A stretch of 64,000 nucleotides of DNA from assembly GCA_021850325.1 (NCBI GenBank), contig JAJZMF010000008.1:1-64000 (forward strand), in the 5' to 3' direction. Shown here in pieces: positions 53,715-63,573 of this stretch. This DNA comes from Actinomycetes bacterium. GTDB taxonomy: Bacteria; Actinomycetota; Acidimicrobiia; Acidimicrobiales; Palsa-688. The translations under genes were made by a program, and so were the position numbers. The notes below the pieces were generated by a model. It saw nothing but the letters and a program-made list of their open reading frames with translations. It ran no database searches and was not told the DNA's origin. Numbering within the stretch: the first letter of the stretch is position 1; every line of letters starts with the position of its first letter.

Positions 53715-53963
53715 TCAGCGCGGGGTGCTGCTCCCCGAGGTCCGCTCACCCCGGCGCTCCCGGTTGGCCAAGGACGCCTGGTAACCGTCCACCAACCGGC
53801 CCACCGTGCTCACGGCGAGCCAGGCCAGCACGACGGCGCCGGCAAGTTGCTCCCCGGCCGTGGTGGCCTGTGCCGTACCCGCAGCGACGCCGGCCAGGGT
53901 GGGCGCGGAGAGCACCAGGGCCAGCAGGATGAACAGGGCCGGTCGCATGCTCTTGCGTTTCAC
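53715..53963 (-). CDS. Small two-helix membrane protein in the flagellar operon
   Basis: An 82-aa protein with two hydrophobic segments (PALFILLALVLSAPTLAGVAAG and LAGAVVLAWLAVSTVGRL) and a basic C-terminal tail. It starts at a GTG, 7 nt after the flhF-like stop, so it appears co-transcribed with the flagellar operon. No family is recognised. This is the last gene of the operon as seen here. Confidence 0.6.
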   Translation of the reverse strand: MKRKSMRPALFILLALVLSAPTLAGVAAGTAQATTAGEQLAGAVVLAWLAVSTVGRLVDGYQASLANRERRGERTSGSSTPR

Positions 53964-53970
53964 GCGGGCC

Positions 53971-55450
53971 TCACGGTTGCAGCCGGGAGCACAGGGCGCT
54001 GGCCCACAGAGCGGGGGTGGCGGCCTGGCCGTCGACCAGCCCCACGGGGAAGGGCAGGCCCAGTGCCGCCCCGGGAGTCGTCGTGCCCTCCAGGTCGACC
54101 AGCGCCAGGCTGTCCAGGCCGCCGAGCGATGAGGACCAAGCCGTCACGTCCTCCACCTTGGTGCAGGCATCGGCCACCCCCCAGCACACGACGGGCTGCA
54201 GTGCCCGGAGCACGGCGGCTGCCCACTGGTTGCCGGACGGCCGGACCGGGGACTCGATAGCCACCACCGCGGGATGGGAGCGCCAGCGCCAGGCGAGCCT
54301 CAGCTCGTCGGCTGCCGCCGGGCTGGTGATCACCGCTTCCCTCTGCTGCCTGACATCGCGTTGGGTCGCCAGGGCGACCCTCCCGGCCGGGACGCCCATC
54401 TGCTCGGCCAGCAACCGGGCCACAGCCGCCACCTTGCGTTTGGGGCCGACCACTGCCACCACGCTCGTCGGCTGGGTGGGCAGTGGGAGCGGGGGAGGCA
54501 ACAGGTGCTCGAGCGCCCTTCGCAGTGCAAGCTCGGCCTGTCCGGCGCTGACCGTGGTGCCCACCAGTGAGCACAGGACCTCAGGCAGCCCGGTCGCCCG
54601 GAGGCCTTCCCCGGGGGGGACGGCCAGGGTGTGGACCGGCTCGGGGGCGTCCGCAGGGGGGGCGAGCGCCGGCACCTGCACCTGCGCCGGCACCTGCACC
54701 GGGCCTTCCAGCGGCGCCGGGGCGGCCCCGGACGGCGCGCCGGCAGTCCCACCCAGTTCGGCCAGCAACCGTGGGGTGTGGTTGACCTCGGTCCCGGGCC
54801 CGTAGGTGGGCGCCGCCAGCGGTAGGACGCCCTCGGTAGGGGGCAGGAGCCCGGACCGTCGCGCGATCTCCTCGAGCACCTCGGCGAAGTCCGCGCCCGG
54901 GTTGGCAGCCGGGCCCGTGGCCCTCACCGGTGCCGGGGCCGCAGCGGGCGGCACTGCCACCGGGGCCTCCGGCCCGGAGCTGAGCCGGAAGTGGGACTGC
55001 TCGGAGTTCAGTTCCTCCGCCAGGTCGAGGACCGAGGAGGGCCCGTTGTCGGCCATCTCGGTGAGCAGCCGAGTGAGAGCATCGTCATGACCTTCAGGCA
55101 GGCCACCGGTACCGCCTCCCGACCTGGCCAACCCGTCCAGGGGACCGCCGCTGCCGGGCCGTGTGGTGCCGACGTCCCGGCCACCGCGCCACAGCGCGCC
55201 CAGGGCAGCCGCGGGACGGAGCGCCGCTACGGCCGGGACGGCCGTGATGCCACCCTCGCCCCGTAGTCCGTCCGGCCCGGTCGGCGTCCCTGGACCGGGC
55301 CCCGGGCCTGGGTCCACCTCTATCTCGACGTGCTCACGTGAGAAGAAGCCGGCGACACCGCCCCGCCTCACCTTCGTGGCGCCGACCAGACGAGGGTTGG
55401 GCCCCAGGGCCTCACGCGCCGCCTGGACCGCTTCCTCGATGGTGCTGCCT

Positions 55451-55470
<20 letters not shown>
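53971..55470 (-). CDS. FlhF-like protein with lost GTPase motifs
   Basis: A 499-aa protein. The N-terminal 55 residues are a typical FlhF start (FEGSTIEEAVQAAREALGPN, LVGATKVRRGG, FFSREHVEIEV). A Pro/Ala/Gly-rich linker of about 200 residues follows, then the N and G domains of an SRP-type GTPase. In the G domain the P-loop GxxxxGKT is replaced by GPKRKVAA, the DTAG position reads ESPV, and the TKLD position reads VDLEG. It should therefore not bind or hydrolyse GTP. Position after flhA supports the FlhF identity. The TTG start lies inside the flhA 3' end (20-bp overlap). Confidence 0.75.
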
Positions 55471-57493
<2,023 letters not shown>

Positions 57494-57702: not shown

Positions 57703-58872
57703 TCAGCGGCCGGTCGCCGGGCCCACGAGCAGGCCCCTTTCGGCCACGATCCGTTCGGCCGTACTGGCGGGGATGAGGGAGGAGGAGGGACGGTGGGGTG
57801 CCCCGTCGATCCGCACCGTGCGCCCGGAGGCTCGGAGCCCGTAGATGAAGGTGAGCAGACGGGCCACCGCCTCGTACAGCTCCGTCGGCACCTCGTGCTC
57901 GAGCTCGCAGGCGGCGTAGAGGGCACGGGCCAGGGGTGGGTCCTCCACGACCGGGACGCCCTTGGCCTCCGCCTCCTCTCTTATGCGCATTGCGAGCAGG
58001 TCCGCCCCCTTGGCCACCACCCGGGGTGCGCCCCGGCCCCTCACGTAGCTCACGGCCACGGCGAAGTGGGTGGGGTTGACCACTACGGCGTCGGCGGCGG
58101 AGACGGCGGCCATCATGCGGTTCCGTGAGACCTGGCGCTGGCGGCGGCGGACGGCGCCCTTGGTGAAGGGGTTGCCCTCGCTCGACTTGTGCTCCTCCTT
58201 GAGCTCCTCGCGTGACATCTTCAGCTGGGAGGAGACCTTACGGAACTGGACTATGTAGTCCAGGGCGGCCAGGACCAGGCCGATCTCGGCCACCTCCCTG
58301 GTCAGGCCCAGGGCCCGGCCGCCCACTGCCGACGCCACGGTCTCGGTCGAGGCCGGCCCGCTGCCGGCGAGCACGGGCAGCAGGGCGTGGACCGTCTGCC
58401 ACACGACGAGCGAGAGGAGCGCCACCCGGATGAGCTGTTTGCTCACCTCCCACAGCGAACGGGGCGAGAGGATCCGCTGCAGGCCGGCCTTGGGGCTCAG
58501 CCGCCCGAAGGAGGGCTTCAGGGGATGGAAGGTGATGAGGCCCCGGGTCTGGGCCAGGTTGACCACGATGGCGACGCCGGTGATGGCCAGCAGCACCGGG
58601 GCGAGGGCGTAGAGGCCCCCCAGTAGCGCCTGGGAGGTGAAGGCCATGTCGCCGTTGACGTTCGGCGTGGCCATGATGTCGGGGAGGCGCGCCCAGAGCT
58701 TCTCCATGAGGACGTAGGTGGCCGAGATGGCGTCGGGTACGAGGTAGCTGCCGACCAGCACCACCAGCCAGGTGACCACTTCGGGGGTCCGGGCCACGTT
58801 GCCCTGCTTGCGCGCCTCTTTCTTGCGCCTGGCGGTCGGCTTCTCGGTGCGTGAGTGCTTGTCCCCGGGCAC
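57703..58872 (-). CDS. flhB: Flagellar export switch protein FlhB
   Basis: A 389-aa export-gate protein. Four membrane segments follow a basic N-terminus (DKHSRTEKPTARRKKEARKQGNVART). The autocleavage site NPTH is intact in VVVNPTHFAVAVSY, so the substrate-specificity switch should function. The C-terminal tail after about residue 355 is variable. The GTG at 58872 has GGAG upstream. It lies 15 nt after the fliR stop. Confidence 0.97.
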   Translation of the reverse strand: MPGDKHSRTEKPTARRKKEARKQGNVARTPEVVTWLVVLVGSYLVPDAISATYVLMEKLWARLPDIMATPNVNGDMAFTSQALLGGLYALAPVLLAITGVAIVVNLAQTRGLITFHPLKPSFGRLSPKAGLQRILSPRSLWEVSKQLIRVALLSLVVWQTVHALLPVLAGSGPASTETVASAVGGRALGLTREVAEIGLVLAALDYIVQFRKVSSQLKMSREELKEEHKSSEGNPFTKGAVRRRQRQVSRNRMMAAVSAADAVVVNPTHFAVAVSYVRGRGAPRVVAKGADLLAMRIREEAEAKGVPVVEDPPLARALYAACELEHEVPTELYEAVARLLTFIYGLRASGRTVRIDGAPHRPSSSLIPASTAERIVAERGLLVGPATGR

Positions 58873-58887: not shown

Positions 58888-59688
58888 TCAGGGGTGGACG
58901 CCGAGGATGCCGAGGCTGTCGGTGACCGCCCGGTCGACCAGGGTGTTGACTGCCCCCGGCAGGAGGGGCAGGCCGATCGCCACAACGGTGAGGGCGAGCG
59001 CGATGTTGACGCCGAAGCCGAGCGACATGGCGTTGAGCTGGGGCGCGCTCCGGGTGAGCAGGCCCAGGGCCACATAGGCCAGGAACATGCAGCCGAGGAC
59101 GGGAGCCGCGATCTCCAGGGAAGCGGCGAAGAAGTAGCCGACCTCGCTCACCAGTGCCGCCGGGACGAGGTCCACGCTGTGGGCGGACAGGCCCACGGCC
59201 TGGAAGGAGGTGAGGAAGCCCTTGACCACGACCAGGTCGCCTCCGGTGGCGAACAGGAGCGTTGTGAGCACCAGGTTGTAGACGTTGGCAGTCACCGGGT
59301 TCGGGGTACCGCTGATGGGGTCGAACACCTCGGCCGCCGAGAGGCCGCTGGTCATGTCGGTGAGGCTCCCGGCTGCGCTGAGCACGCCGAACAGCAGGTA
59401 GGCCATGAAGCCCATGAGGGTGCCGATCGCCGCCTGGACCACCAGGCCGGTGATGAAAGCGGCAGTGCTGAGCGAGCTGACGGTGGTGGCGAAGCTGCCC
59501 TGCTGACCGGGGTGGGCGGAGGTGACCTGGGAGGTGACGGCAAGGGACAGGGCGGCAGCCAGCCCGGTGCGCACCAGGAGCGGTACGGCTCCGGAGGAGA
59601 ACGGCGGGCAGAAGGCCAACCAGGCGCTCGCCCGGACCATGGCGAACATGAAGACGAAGAAGCTGCCAGCGGCCAGTTGGAGCGTCAC
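58888..59688 (-). CDS. fliR: Flagellar export protein FliR
   Basis: A 266-aa membrane protein of the export gate, with six hydrophobic segments. Family text includes FVFMFAMVRASAWLAFCPPF near the start and APVLGCMFLAYVALGLLTRSAPQLNAMSLGFGVN near the end. It starts with GTG at 59688, 10 nt after the fliQ stop. Confidence 0.95.
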   Translation of the reverse strand: MTLQLAAGSFFVFMFAMVRASAWLAFCPPFSSGAVPLLVRTGLAAALSLAVTSQVTSAHPGQQGSFATTVSSLSTAAFITGLVVQAAIGTLMGFMAYLLFGVLSAAGSLTDMTSGLSAAEVFDPISGTPNPVTANVYNLVLTTLLFATGGDLVVVKGFLTSFQAVGLSAHSVDLVPAALVSEVGYFFAASLEIAAPVLGCMFLAYVALGLLTRSAPQLNAMSLGFGVNIALALTVVAIGLPLLPGAVNTLVDRAVTDSLGILGVHP

Positions 59689-59996: not shown

Positions 59997-61250
59997 TCAG
60001 TGGAAGCTGGCCAGCAACGACTGGACGACCAGGGCCCAACCATCGACCAGGACGAAGAGCAGGAGCTTGAACGGCAGGGACACGAGGGTGGGCGGGAGCA
60101 TCATCATGCCGAGCGACATGAGCGTCGAGCTCACCACCAGGTCGATCACGAGGAAGGGTATGAACACGACGAAGCCGATGATGAACGCCGTGCGCATCTC
60201 GGAGAGGGCGAAGGCCGGCACCACGGCGGCCATGGGCAGTTGCGCGGGGCTCTTGGGCTTGGGCCCCGTTTCGAACAGGGCCAGGTCGTCGGCCTTGGTC
60301 TGGCGCAGCATCCAGTCCTTTATCGGCGCCTGGGCGTCGGTGTAGGCCTGCTGGGCCGTGATCTTGCCCGCCATGTAGGGCTGGACGGCGTCCTTGTTCA
60401 CCTGGCTGATGACGGGGGACATGATGAACAGCGACAGGAAGAGGGCCAGGCCCGCCAGTAGCTGGTTGGGAGGCACATTGGACAGCCCCAGGGCCTGCCT
60501 GGTGAGCGAGAGCACGATGATGATGCGGGTGAAGCTGGTCAGCAGGATGAGGAGAGAGGGGGCGACCGCCAGCAGGGTGAGGGCGATCATGATGGTGATG
60601 CTCTGACTGGGCTTGTTGAGCGCACCGCCCAGGCTCACCGAGATGGTCCCGCCCGAGGCTGACGGGGAGCCGGGCGCGGTGGGAGAGGCGGGCTGTACCG
60701 GCGGGGCGGCGGTCACCGGGACGCCCGGAGTGCTGTTGGGTGTGCCGGTGGGCACGAACGTCCCGCCGGGGACGGTCGTCGTGGCCGCCGGTACCGTGGT
60801 GGCCGCCGACGGGCCGGGCTGGGCCCTACGGGTGGGCCTTGGGGCGGCCTTCGGAGCGGTGGTCTTCGGTGCGTTCGGGGCAGCCACCACCGCCAAGGCC
60901 GTAGTGGTGGTGGCCGCGGTCGTGGTCGTGCTCGTGGCGACTGTCGTTGCCACCGTCGTCGTTGCCACCGTCGTGGCTGCCGTCGTCGTGGCTGCCGGGG
61001 CTGTTGCTGCCGGGGCTGTTGCTGCCGTCGTCGTGGCTGCCGGGGCTGTTGCTGCCGGGGCTGTTGAAGTGGCAGCTGTGGTCACGCTGGCAGCCGCTGG
61101 CGCCAAGCTCGTGGTGGCCGGCGGCCCTGGGGCGGCGTAGGCACTGCGGGCCCCTGCCAGGCTGAGCAGCGCCGCCAGGGCGAGCACGCCGACCAGCAGG
61201 CCAGCGATCGGCCCAGCTGTCCTGGGCGGTCGTTCGGTGATGTTGTGCAC
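59997..61250 (-). CDS. fliP: Flagellar export protein FliP with long Ala/Thr-rich insert
   Basis: A 417-aa protein, against the usual 240-260. A signal peptide (GLLVGVLALAALLSLAGARSAYA) is followed by about 165 residues of Ala/Thr/Pro/Val, then a normal FliP core: SLLILLTSFTRIIIVLSLTRQALG, PPNQLLAGLALFLSLFIMSP, DWMLRQTKADDLALF, AFIIGFVVFIPFLVIDLVVSS and LPFKLLLFVLVDGWALV. The core is complete, so the gate should assemble. The insert would lie outside the membrane after the signal is cleaved. It starts with GTG at 61250. Confidence 0.93.
   Translation of the reverse strand: MHNITERPPRTAGPIAGLLVGVLALAALLSLAGARSAYAAPGPPATTSLAPAAASVTTAATSTAPAATAPAATTTAATAPAATAPAATTTAATTVATTTVATTVATSTTTTAATTTTALAVVAAPNAPKTTAPKAAPRPTRRAQPGPSAATTVPAATTTVPGGTFVPTGTPNSTPGVPVTAAPPVQPASPTAPGSPSASGGTISVSLGGALNKPSQSITIMIALTLLAVAPSLLILLTSFTRIIIVLSLTRQALGLSNVPPNQLLAGLALFLSLFIMSPVISQVNKDAVQPYMAGKITAQQAYTDAQAPIKDWMLRQTKADDLALFETGPKPKSPAQLPMAAVVPAFALSEMRTAFIIGFVVFIPFLVIDLVVSSTLMSLGMMMLPPTLVSLPFKLLLFVLVDGWALVVQSLLASFH
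60976..61065. repeat. Exact 45-bp tandem duplication inside fliP
   Basis: Two identical 45-bp units (60976-61020 and 61021-61065) encode two copies of a 15-residue Ala/Thr/Pro block. Each unit also contains an internal 15-bp repeat (GCTGCCGGGGCTGTT). Flanking sequence (about 60895-60975) is a degenerate continuation of the same text. Exact identity suggests recent slippage. Confidence 0.95.
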
Positions 61251-61277: not shown

Positions 61278-61910
61278 TCAGCGCCTTACGGTGCGCTCCC
61301 GCAGCGAATCAAGGACCAGCTTCCATGCGTTATCGGGGTGCTCGCCCACGATGGGCGGCCTCCCGGCAGAGGCCGGCGTCCGGCCGGCCAGATCTTGCTC
61401 TCCGGCCCCGACGAGCGACAGGTCGCCCAGGGCCAGGCCTTCGAACCGAGCCAGGTCGGCCGTCCCACTGGTGCCGTGGCCGGCGACGGCGAGCCGGGGC
61501 CCGTCCGCAGCCAGGTCGACGGCCGCCGGGCCGAGGCCCGCCAGGTCGGCTACAGGGCCCTCGGCTGGCAGTTCGGTGAGCAGGTTGACCGAATGCTCGG
61601 TGACGCCGAGCAGGTAGCGGCCGGTGGCCGACTCGACCACGGCCAGCCATGCCCCCTTGGCCAGCTGACGGCGGTAGACAATGCCCACCGGGGGGACGGG
61701 TCGTGACCGGCGGGCCTTGCCGGTCCCGAGCGGCCCGAGGAGGCCGCCCGGAGCGGCACCCTGGCGCCCCCGGCCACGAGGGCTGCGAGACGCCTGGTAG
61801 GCGAGCGGCCCGACGGATCCCTGGCGGTGGCGGACGAACCTGGCCGCCAGCCACATCACGGCCATCACCACGGCCATGGAGAGGACGAGGCGGACGAAGA
61901 GGTTGAGCAT
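61278..61910 (-). CDS. fliO: Flagellar biosynthesis protein FliO
   Basis: A 210-aa protein with one N-terminal membrane segment (LFVRLVLSMAVVMAVMWLAARFV) followed by a basic linker and the cytoplasmic FliO-type beta domain (GIVYRRQLAKGAWLAVVESATGRYLLGVTEHSVNLL). FliO helps FliP assemble. Its place between fliN and fliP is the standard gene order. It is longer than usual because of a low-complexity C-terminus. Confidence 0.85.
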   Translation of the reverse strand: MLNLFVRLVLSMAVVMAVMWLAARFVRHRQGSVGPLAYQASRSPRGRGRQGAAPGGLLGPLGTGKARRSRPVPPVGIVYRRQLAKGAWLAVVESATGRYLLGVTEHSVNLLTELPAEGPVADLAGLGPAAVDLAADGPRLAVAGHGTSGTADLARFEGLALGDLSLVGAGEQDLAGRTPASAGRPPIVGEHPDNAWKLVLDSLRERTVRR

Positions 61911-61915
61911 GGCCC

Positions 61916-62653
61916 TCAGTCGCCCGTGAGCAGTTCGGTGACGCGCACGGCGAAGGAGTCGTCTACGACCACCACTTCGCCCCGGGCGATGAGGGTGCCC
62001 TGGACCAGGATGTCGACCGGCTGGGTCACGACCCTGTCCAGTTGCACGACGGCCCCGTTGTGGATGTCGAGGAGGTCCTTGATGGCGATCTTGGTCCGGC
62101 CCAGCTCCACGGTCACCGTCATCTCGACCTCGCCCAGGGCGGCGATCGACCGCCGGGCGCTCAGGGTGCCCGGAGAGGGGTCGAGGTGTGGGAGCTCGGC
62201 CGCGGCGTCGCTGGCCGGCAGGACGAGGACCACCAGGGCGACCTCGGCGCCGTCCGAGACCAAGGGGACGGCGATGGCCTGTTCCCCGGGGCGTGCCTGG
62301 GTGAGGGCGGACGGCGAGATGGCGGCGGCGTTGCCCGCCCGGTCGGCCCCACACGCGGCAGCCAGGGCGTTCACGGCACCGGCCAGCGCCTCTGCCAGGT
62401 CTGCGGCGCTGGGCTCGGCCGTGCCGGGGGCAACGACCAGGCTGAGGTCGCCGCAGGGGCCGGCCGGCCCGAGCAGCGGGGCGGTCCAGGCTCGGGCGTC
62501 CCGCTCCAGTACCGGCGAGCCGGCTGGCGCTCCGTCGGCCCAGATGTCGTAGCCGGGACCGGGCTCAGCGCTCAGGCCCAGGGCTGTGGCCAGCAACGCG
62601 GCCGATTCGGCAGCGGCCGGCCCGATGATGGCCAGGTCGGTGTCGACGCTCAA
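61916..62653 (-). CDS. fliN: Flagellar motor switch protein FliN/FliY
   Basis: A 245-aa C-ring protein. The C-terminal 75 residues are a SpoA domain (EMTVTVELGRTKIAIKDLLDIHNGAVVQLDRVVTQPVDILVQG). The first 150 residues are an extra domain absent from short FliN, similar in position and size to the CheC-like domain of FliY, but I see no phosphatase motif. The TTG at 62653 overlaps the fliM stop as TTGA. fliO follows after 5 nt. Confidence 0.9.
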   Translation of the reverse strand: MSVDTDLAIIGPAAAESAALLATALGLSAEPGPGYDIWADGAPAGSPVLERDARAWTAPLLGPAGPCGDLSLVVAPGTAEPSAADLAEALAGAVNALAAACGADRAGNAAAISPSALTQARPGEQAIAVPLVSDGAEVALVVLVLPASDAAAELPHLDPSPGTLSARRSIAALGEVEMTVTVELGRTKIAIKDLLDIHNGAVVQLDRVVTQPVDILVQGTLIARGEVVVVDDSFAVRVTELLTGD

Positions 62654-63573
62654 GGTTCAGCTCCTTTGGTGCCAGGGGGGCCCACGACGGCGAAGGCCTT
62701 CTGTGCCCCCCGGCGCCCGGCCAGCACGGCCAGGAAGGGCAGGTCTCCGACGTACAGGGTGAGAGGCAGGTCCACGGGGTGGTCGAGGCGGAGGACCTGG
62801 CCCGGGGCCAGGTCGACCACGCGGTGCGAAGGTACGGCGGTGTCGTTGAAGCGGACGGTGGCTTCGACGGCGCAATCGCCCAGACGGCCCGTGCTGGCCA
62901 GGGAGGTCGCCGCAGCGGAGGTGCCCGAAAAGGCCTCCAGGCTTGCGAGCAGGGGCTCAGCCGGCACTGCCACCCGCAGGTGGCCAACGGCGCTGTTCAT
63001 GGTGACGTCGAACTCGAAGGCGATCAGGAGGCTGCGGGCGGCCGAGGCCCGGATCAGCTCGAGCCGGCTCTCCTGGCGGGCCGTGGTGGGCTCGGTGCGC
63101 ACCACGAGGGCGAGGGACTCGGCCAGGTCGGTCGAAGCCCTCTGGTGGACCTCGCCGACAAGTGTCAGCTCGACCTCGGTCAAGGGATCGGTGCGCTCCT
63201 GGGCGATGCCGGCCCCTCCCATCAGCTTCTCCACGATGGCCGTGGCGAGCGGGACGTCCATAACGACCAGGCCCGTGCCCTCCATCGGGGGTACGTGCAG
63301 GCGGGCAGCGCAGTAGGGCTCCGGCAGGGCGGCCAGGAGGTCGTCCCAGGACCATTGCTGGACCGGGGAGGTGGTTATCTCGACCTCGGCGCCCACGTAC
63401 CCGGACAGGTCGGCGGCGAAGAGGCGACAGAAGTTCTGGCCCACCAGGGCCAGGACCTGCTCGTGCTCGTCCTTCAGCGTGGTGGCAGGCCTGACCCGGA
63501 ACGGGCGCAGCGGCTTGGGGCGGCCACCGCGCCCGAGAGGGACGACCGTCTCCCTGGCCTCGTGCGCGCTCAT
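62650..63573 (-). CDS. fliM: Flagellar motor switch protein FliM, N-terminal motif missing
   Basis: A 307-aa C-ring protein with the middle CheC-like domain (VVMDVPLATAIVEKLMGGAG) and a C-terminal SpoA domain (VEATVRFNDTAVPSHRVVDLAPGQVLRLDHPVDLPLTLYVGD). The N-terminus begins MSAHEARETVVPLGRGGRP and goes directly to the FR-x-RPATTLKDEHEQVLALV part. The usual LSQ-x-EIDALL CheY-binding segment is absent, and no upstream start codon restores it. The SpoA domain should still bind FliN. Confidence 0.92.
   Translation of the reverse strand: MSAHEARETVVPLGRGGRPKPLRPFRVRPATTLKDEHEQVLALVGQNFCRLFAADLSGYVGAEVEITTSPVQQWSWDDLLAALPEPYCAARLHVPPMEGTGLVVMDVPLATAIVEKLMGGAGIAQERTDPLTEVELTLVGEVHQRASTDLAESLALVVRTEPTTARQESRLELIRASAARSLLIAFEFDVTMNSAVGHLRVAVPAEPLLASLEAFSGTSAAATSLASTGRLGDCAVEATVRFNDTAVPSHRVVDLAPGQVLRLDHPVDLPLTLYVGDLPFLAVLAGRRGAQKAFAVVGPPGTKGAEP

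Follow-up and report, generated by a model that had tools for sequence, protein, structure and literature searches.

The window analysed here, a stretch of 64,000 nucleotides from a genome of the class Acidimicrobiia, contains a run of flagellar genes on the reverse strand (Table 1). Directly after flhA lies a gene for an FlhF homologue that lacks the GTPase motifs; its 5' part shares 20 nt with the 3' end of flhA, which bears out the position given in the original prediction. The flagellar cluster continues beyond the window on the same contig with motB, motA, a hook-type gene, fliK, fliI, fliG and fliF, and the middle and C domains of this FliG are intact. Beyond the window (contig C24) the cluster also encodes a protein that combines NlpC/P60 and SLT domains (L070, 10492-11709, reverse strand) and is a putative wall hydrolase for passage of the rod.

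Table 1. Genes, domains and former GTPase motifs at the flagellar locus, in window coordinates.
Feature	Coordinates	Strand	Evidence and remarks
Pseudo-GTPase FlhF, 499 aa	53971..55470	-	ORF, profile-profile comparison and joint alignment; TTG start 55468-55470, stop 53971-53973
FliG-interaction domain (FID), residues 1-56, conserved FlhF N-terminus (RRGGVAGFFSREHVEIEV)	55303..55470	-	TIGR03499; 9en1_A
Linker, residues 57-286, long, Gly/Pro/Ala-rich, poorly conserved	54613..55302	-	Class protein alignment
Pseudo-NG domain, residues 287-499	53974..54612	-	AlphaFold2, Foldseek, VIA-align
Former P-loop (G1), reads GPKRKVAA, no GK[ST]	54424..54447	-	Profile-profile comparison and joint alignment
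Former G3 (DTAG), reads ESPV	54244..54255	-	Profile-profile comparison and joint alignment
Former G4 (TKLD), reads VDLEG	54085..54099	-	Profile-profile comparison and joint alignment
Small two-TM protein, 82 aa, no Pfam family	53715..53963	-	Starts 7 nt after the pseudo-flhF stop
flhA	55451..57493	-	PF00771, E 8.7e-247; TIGR01398 over cut-off
flhB	57703..58872	-	PF01312
fliR	58888..59688	-	PF01311
fliP	59997..61250	-	PF00813
fliO-like	61278..62354	-	PF04347
fliM	62653..63573	-	Flagellar cluster member

FlhF is generally regarded as a GTP switch, and in many bacteria it sets the site at which the flagellum is built. The window protein retains the N-terminal signature of the family, as originally claimed: the FlhF model TIGR03499 (NCBIfam) matches residues 1-51 only (E 1.6e-5), and the full-length protein scores 25.1 bits, below the curated cut-off of 174.15. 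A profile of the FID built from degenerate FlhF proteins alone finds the FlhF N-terminal chain 9en1_A as its top PDB match (E 0.0019), and inclusion of intact relatives brings this match to E 5e-6; matches of the FID profile to retroviral integrases (E 0.16 and worse) are attributed to chance. Pfam detects no SRP54 domain in the window protein, and searching PDB sequences with a profile of the degenerate NG domain gave nothing beyond chance matches (E 0.3) of the R-x-W-R stretch and its surroundings with ribosomal L39e. Comparison of a profile of 12 class proteins, the window's included, with one of eight intact FlhF from the phylum nevertheless aligns the degenerate and intact proteins over 172 columns (hhalign, E 6.2e-9, 96%). 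Fold prediction, one of the checks proposed with the original prediction, returned an SRP-GTPase NG fold: the AlphaFold2 model of the 213 C-terminal residues (287-499) has a mean pLDDT of 90.7 and a pTM of 0.86, all 50 of its top Foldseek matches are SRP GTPases (S. putrefaciens FlhF 8r9r, E 1.4e-7), and VIA-align superposes it on 8r9r with Z 16.2 (rmsd 3.6, 203 residues aligned) and on B. subtilis FlhF 2px3 with Z 15.6. By these Foldseek matches and Z scores, the pseudo-NG domain has the FlhF fold.

The loss of the GTPase motifs is seen both in the profile-profile comparison and in a joint alignment of 55 rows, which agree with each other and with the motif readings first reported. Intact FlhF and the window protein pair as GPTGxGKTTT/GPKRKVAAVA, DTAG/IES(PV) and TKLDETTTPG/VDLEGTTTPG. 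The P-loop lysine is present in 0 of 34 degenerate relatives versus 11 of 11 intact FlhF, and the degenerate proteins also lack the second P-loop glycine, G2, DTAG and TKLD, while the first P-loop glycine is retained. No intact P-loop was found elsewhere in the window protein. The claim that an FlhF homologue without GTPase motifs is encoded here therefore stands, and the window protein almost certainly descends from FlhF, as a conserved protein that has no GTP site and, judging by its sequence, would not bind GTP. Where the insertion box has been lost, an R-x-x-W-R stretch (residues 391-395, window 54286-54300, reverse strand) is kept in relatives; it is a candidate binding surface of the pseudo-NG domain.

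NG86 dN/dS was estimated in ten pairs of relatives: values are about 0.02-0.2 for the FID and 0.05-0.36 for the last 190 residues. Some of the dS values are above 1 and rough, and one pair (L171/L173) has no NG domain. Gly22, Gly36, Gly37, Gly40 and Phe41 of the FID are invariant in the window protein and 24 other degenerate proteins. The pseudo-GTPase FlhF is under purifying selection.

Across the class, FlhA is found in 30 of 198 genomes and FlhF above its family cut-off in none of the 198. A gene with an FID nevertheless lies directly after flhA in 28 of the 30 flhA-bearing genomes, a count obtained from coordinates and, for four genomes missed in the protein search, by reading the sequence; of the other two, G121 is a small flhA fragment and G197 has only the C-terminal end, at a contig edge. 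Scanning the contigs with the window protein alone matched nothing, and an alignment of close relatives was effective. Besides proteins of the window's kind (type A), some relatives encode a shorter protein (type B), whose C-terminal domain is modelled with a pLDDT of 91.6 and resembles SRP GTPases (Foldseek 3.3e-5, Z 10.9). Type B does not match intact FlhF by hhalign (E 0.52) and matches type A at only E 3.4e-4 (38%); it is the fold match that points to its putative NG origin. In Ilumatobacteraceae and relatives the FID is detected (1e-18 to 1e-26), and an NG profile finds no NG domain; in nine loci of this kind (L169, L171-L173, L179, L180, L183-L185) the FID is followed by an unrelated-looking conserved C-terminal stretch of about 55 residues. 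Reading by eye, we also noted a fliW-like gene after pseudo-flhF in G190 and a Microthrixaceae MAG (L054, L170), with a csrA-like gene next after fliW in L054.

Intact FlhF is restricted to 15 of 396 genomes of the phylum (families f50, f52 and f64), and the four loci that were read completely have flhG directly after it. Between these proteins and the window's lie lineages that are without FlhG and have partly eroded motifs. Two complete f61 sequences keep the P-loop, DTAG and TKLD and have already lost the G2 residues, with FlhG absent; f62, f68, f81, f84 and f95 keep the P-loop, with G3 and G4 eroded to differing degrees. Loss of the P-loop itself is seen in Acidimicrobiia, Nitriliruptorales, Pilimelia, Actinophytocola and Actinokineospora, and maps to one change with branch support 100 on an FlhA tree of 91 rows, built with FastTree, which readily joins long branches, and including an f61 row (L086) labelled intact although truncated. 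On this tree P-loop loss is a single old event, basal to Acidimicrobiia, Nitriliruptoria and Actinomycetes. The pseudo-GTPase state is therefore not peculiar to the window's lineage, to which the original prediction referred, but common to the class and its neighbouring classes, and most flagellated Actinomycetota retain such an FlhF. No FID gene was found directly after flhA in the flagellated families f51, f77 and f98 (L096, L107, L114, L118, L119, L127), and flagella in the phylum thus do not everywhere depend on the protein. In a 2023 survey, FlhF is said to be missing from the classes that have no FlgFG, namely Acidimicrobiia, Nitriliruptoria and Actinomycetia (PMC10746217); flhF is present in diverged form in many of them, which corrects that statement. 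A literature search joining FlhF with pseudo-GTPase found no paper.

The window's own genome (95% complete) offers no replacement for the missing switch. An SRP54-domain search gave exactly two full SRP-GTPase matches, which we take to be Ffh and FtsY, two being the number expected for the pair, so that the assembly has no second FlhF. The absence of FlhG from the window, also part of the original prediction, holds and extends to the genome as assembled: with a profile built from four actinobacterial FlhG, the best match there reaches 46 bits versus 511-561 bits in three control genomes. In 27 flagellated genomes of the class, matches are at most 78 bits, a range also seen in four genomes of the class that have no flhA. 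FlhG is present only alongside intact FlhF, in five genomes belonging to three families (386-561 bits), and none was found in 19 other genomes at E 1e-25. In G020 and G056 the flagellar contigs carry ParA-like genes, which were considered as FlhG and rejected, being by eye of the ordinary ParA type (250-260 aa) beside a purM-like gene.

The place that flhG holds in basal relatives is occupied here by the gene for the small two-TM protein, a member of a conserved family. Two-TM genes were scored by one rule throughout, which required a length of 60-160 aa, two hydrophobic segments and a start close to the stop codon. By this rule one comes next in 55 of 74 loci that have lost the P-loop, in 3 of 4 partial loci and in 0 of 9 intact ones; the background of the rule is 3.7% for random anchors and 3.9% for other ORF ends. 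Loci of f61, f81 and f95 also carry a two-TM gene, in some farther downstream, and in some lineages it is displaced or missing (e.g. L120-L122, L054 and L170). Relatedness extends across classes, with a profile from Acidimicrobiia matching the Pilimelia and Actinokineospora proteins at E 1e-8 to 1e-11, and Pfam assigns none of six members to a family above its cut-off.

We propose that a vertically inherited FlhF became a pseudo-GTPase and has been kept as a nucleotide-independent adaptor at flagellar initiation; for this mechanism as a whole, that of a FliG tether, we estimate a probability of roughly 0.6. The FID, which remains wherever the gene remains, most likely binds FliG, as its sequence suggests, and would thereby hold the nascent FliF-FliG base. 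The pseudo-NG domain most likely docks a membrane or positional partner, for which the two-TM protein is the best candidate. Lack of FlhG would mean that no GTPase-activating protein drives a cycle, and on the most economical reading FlhG was lost first, the GTP cycle then became useless and the GTPase decayed, while FlhF was retained as a FliG tether. The available intermediates suggest an order of erosion from catalysis-related residues to nucleotide-binding motifs and, in some lineages, to the NG fold, with the FID staying. Of the role originally put forward, retention of a pseudo-GTPase that works without GTP switching survives as the best reading, given the purifying selection and the lack of FlhG; its description as a landmark only is not supported, since the FID is the best-conserved part of the protein, which fits a tether or adaptor and does not require a landmark. 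That such a tether would be constitutive cannot be taken for granted, because in P. aeruginosa a stable FlhF-FliG complex needed a GTP analogue (PMC12713375). It is possible, if tentative, that in several Actinomycetota classes the FlhF/FlhG GTPase-ATPase cycle as such has been replaced by a switchless system, consisting of the pseudo-GTPase FliG tether and the two-TM family in the place of flhG, in which membrane anchoring would set flagellar placement or number.

Several other accounts have to be weighed against the nucleotide-independent tether. That the C-terminal domain is not NG at all, and only the N-terminus descends from FlhF, might be thought from the failure of this region alone to find Pfam or PDB sequence matches, but it is hardly credible in view of the 172-column profile-profile alignment and the intermediates with an intact P-loop in f61, f62 and f95, and the independent match of the modelled fold to SRP GTPases refutes it. 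If the domain is NG, it might still switch, in response to another nucleotide, a second messenger or a protein partner, with only the classical GTP site gone; its compact fold would fit such a switch, as would its own conserved positions that are absent from GTPases, among them the R-x-x-W-R stretch and a D-G near the C-terminus. However, the 34 relatives show no conserved polar residues opposite the phosphate-binding loop, and a conserved ligand site is hard to reconcile with the further shortening of the type B domain and the absence of any trace in Ilumatobacteraceae, which makes the account unlikely.

The stepwise erosion across the phylum, the low-complexity sequence in which the linker is rich and the absence of the gene from some flagellated families could instead mark a decaying, functionless relic, kept by its operon position or by translational coupling. 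We regard this as very unlikely, as dN/dS is well below 1 at both ends of the protein in the ten pairs, the FID glycines and GF motif are invariant across classes, and the open frame and gene order are older than the split of several classes. The gene lies directly after flhA wherever it was found, often overlapping it, and this adjacency could reflect a shared function, in the export gate (FlhA/FlhB) or in the timing of C-ring assembly, rather than one in placement; we know of no FlhF contact with FlhA. A timing role has a parallel in S. putrefaciens, where FlhF-bound FliG is unable to bind FliM/FliN (PMC11236974), but the adjacency itself says little, because ordinary FlhF usually shows the same arrangement, for example flhA-flhF-fleN-fliA in P. 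putida (PMC6424431), and an export or timing role does not appear probable.

Set beside known FlhF (B. subtilis 2px3, S. putrefaciens 8r9r and the FID chain 9en1), the window protein has the same N-terminal FID, linker and NG fold and the same gene position directly after flhA; unlike 2px3 and 8r9r it lacks the G1, G2, G3, G4 and closing-loop motifs, FlhG is absent and the linker is longer. The basal actinobacterial FlhF of f50, f52 and f64 share with it the place after flhA, the domain order and the phylum, but retain the full set of GTPase motifs, with flhG as the next gene. The two-TM neighbour is, like the gammaproteobacterial transmembrane FlhF-interacting protein FipA (PMC11620751), a small membrane protein, linked to FlhF here by gene order only; by Pfam, six members of its family are not recognisable as any known small membrane protein family. 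Caulobacter (TipN/TipF) and Escherichia likewise build flagella without an FlhF GTPase cycle, but these lack FlhF altogether, whereas here a pseudo-GTPase is retained.

The need for a GTP cycle in flagellar placement is disputed between species. The GTP site was given up a single time, long ago, in much of a phylum, while the protein was kept and intermediates survive. Nature has in this way separated the tether function from that of the switch, and the analysis has brought to light an unnamed family of small membrane proteins in flagellar operons. Because cultured bacteria such as Actinokineospora, Pilimelia and Actinophytocola carry the pseudo-GTPase, the question is open to experiment.
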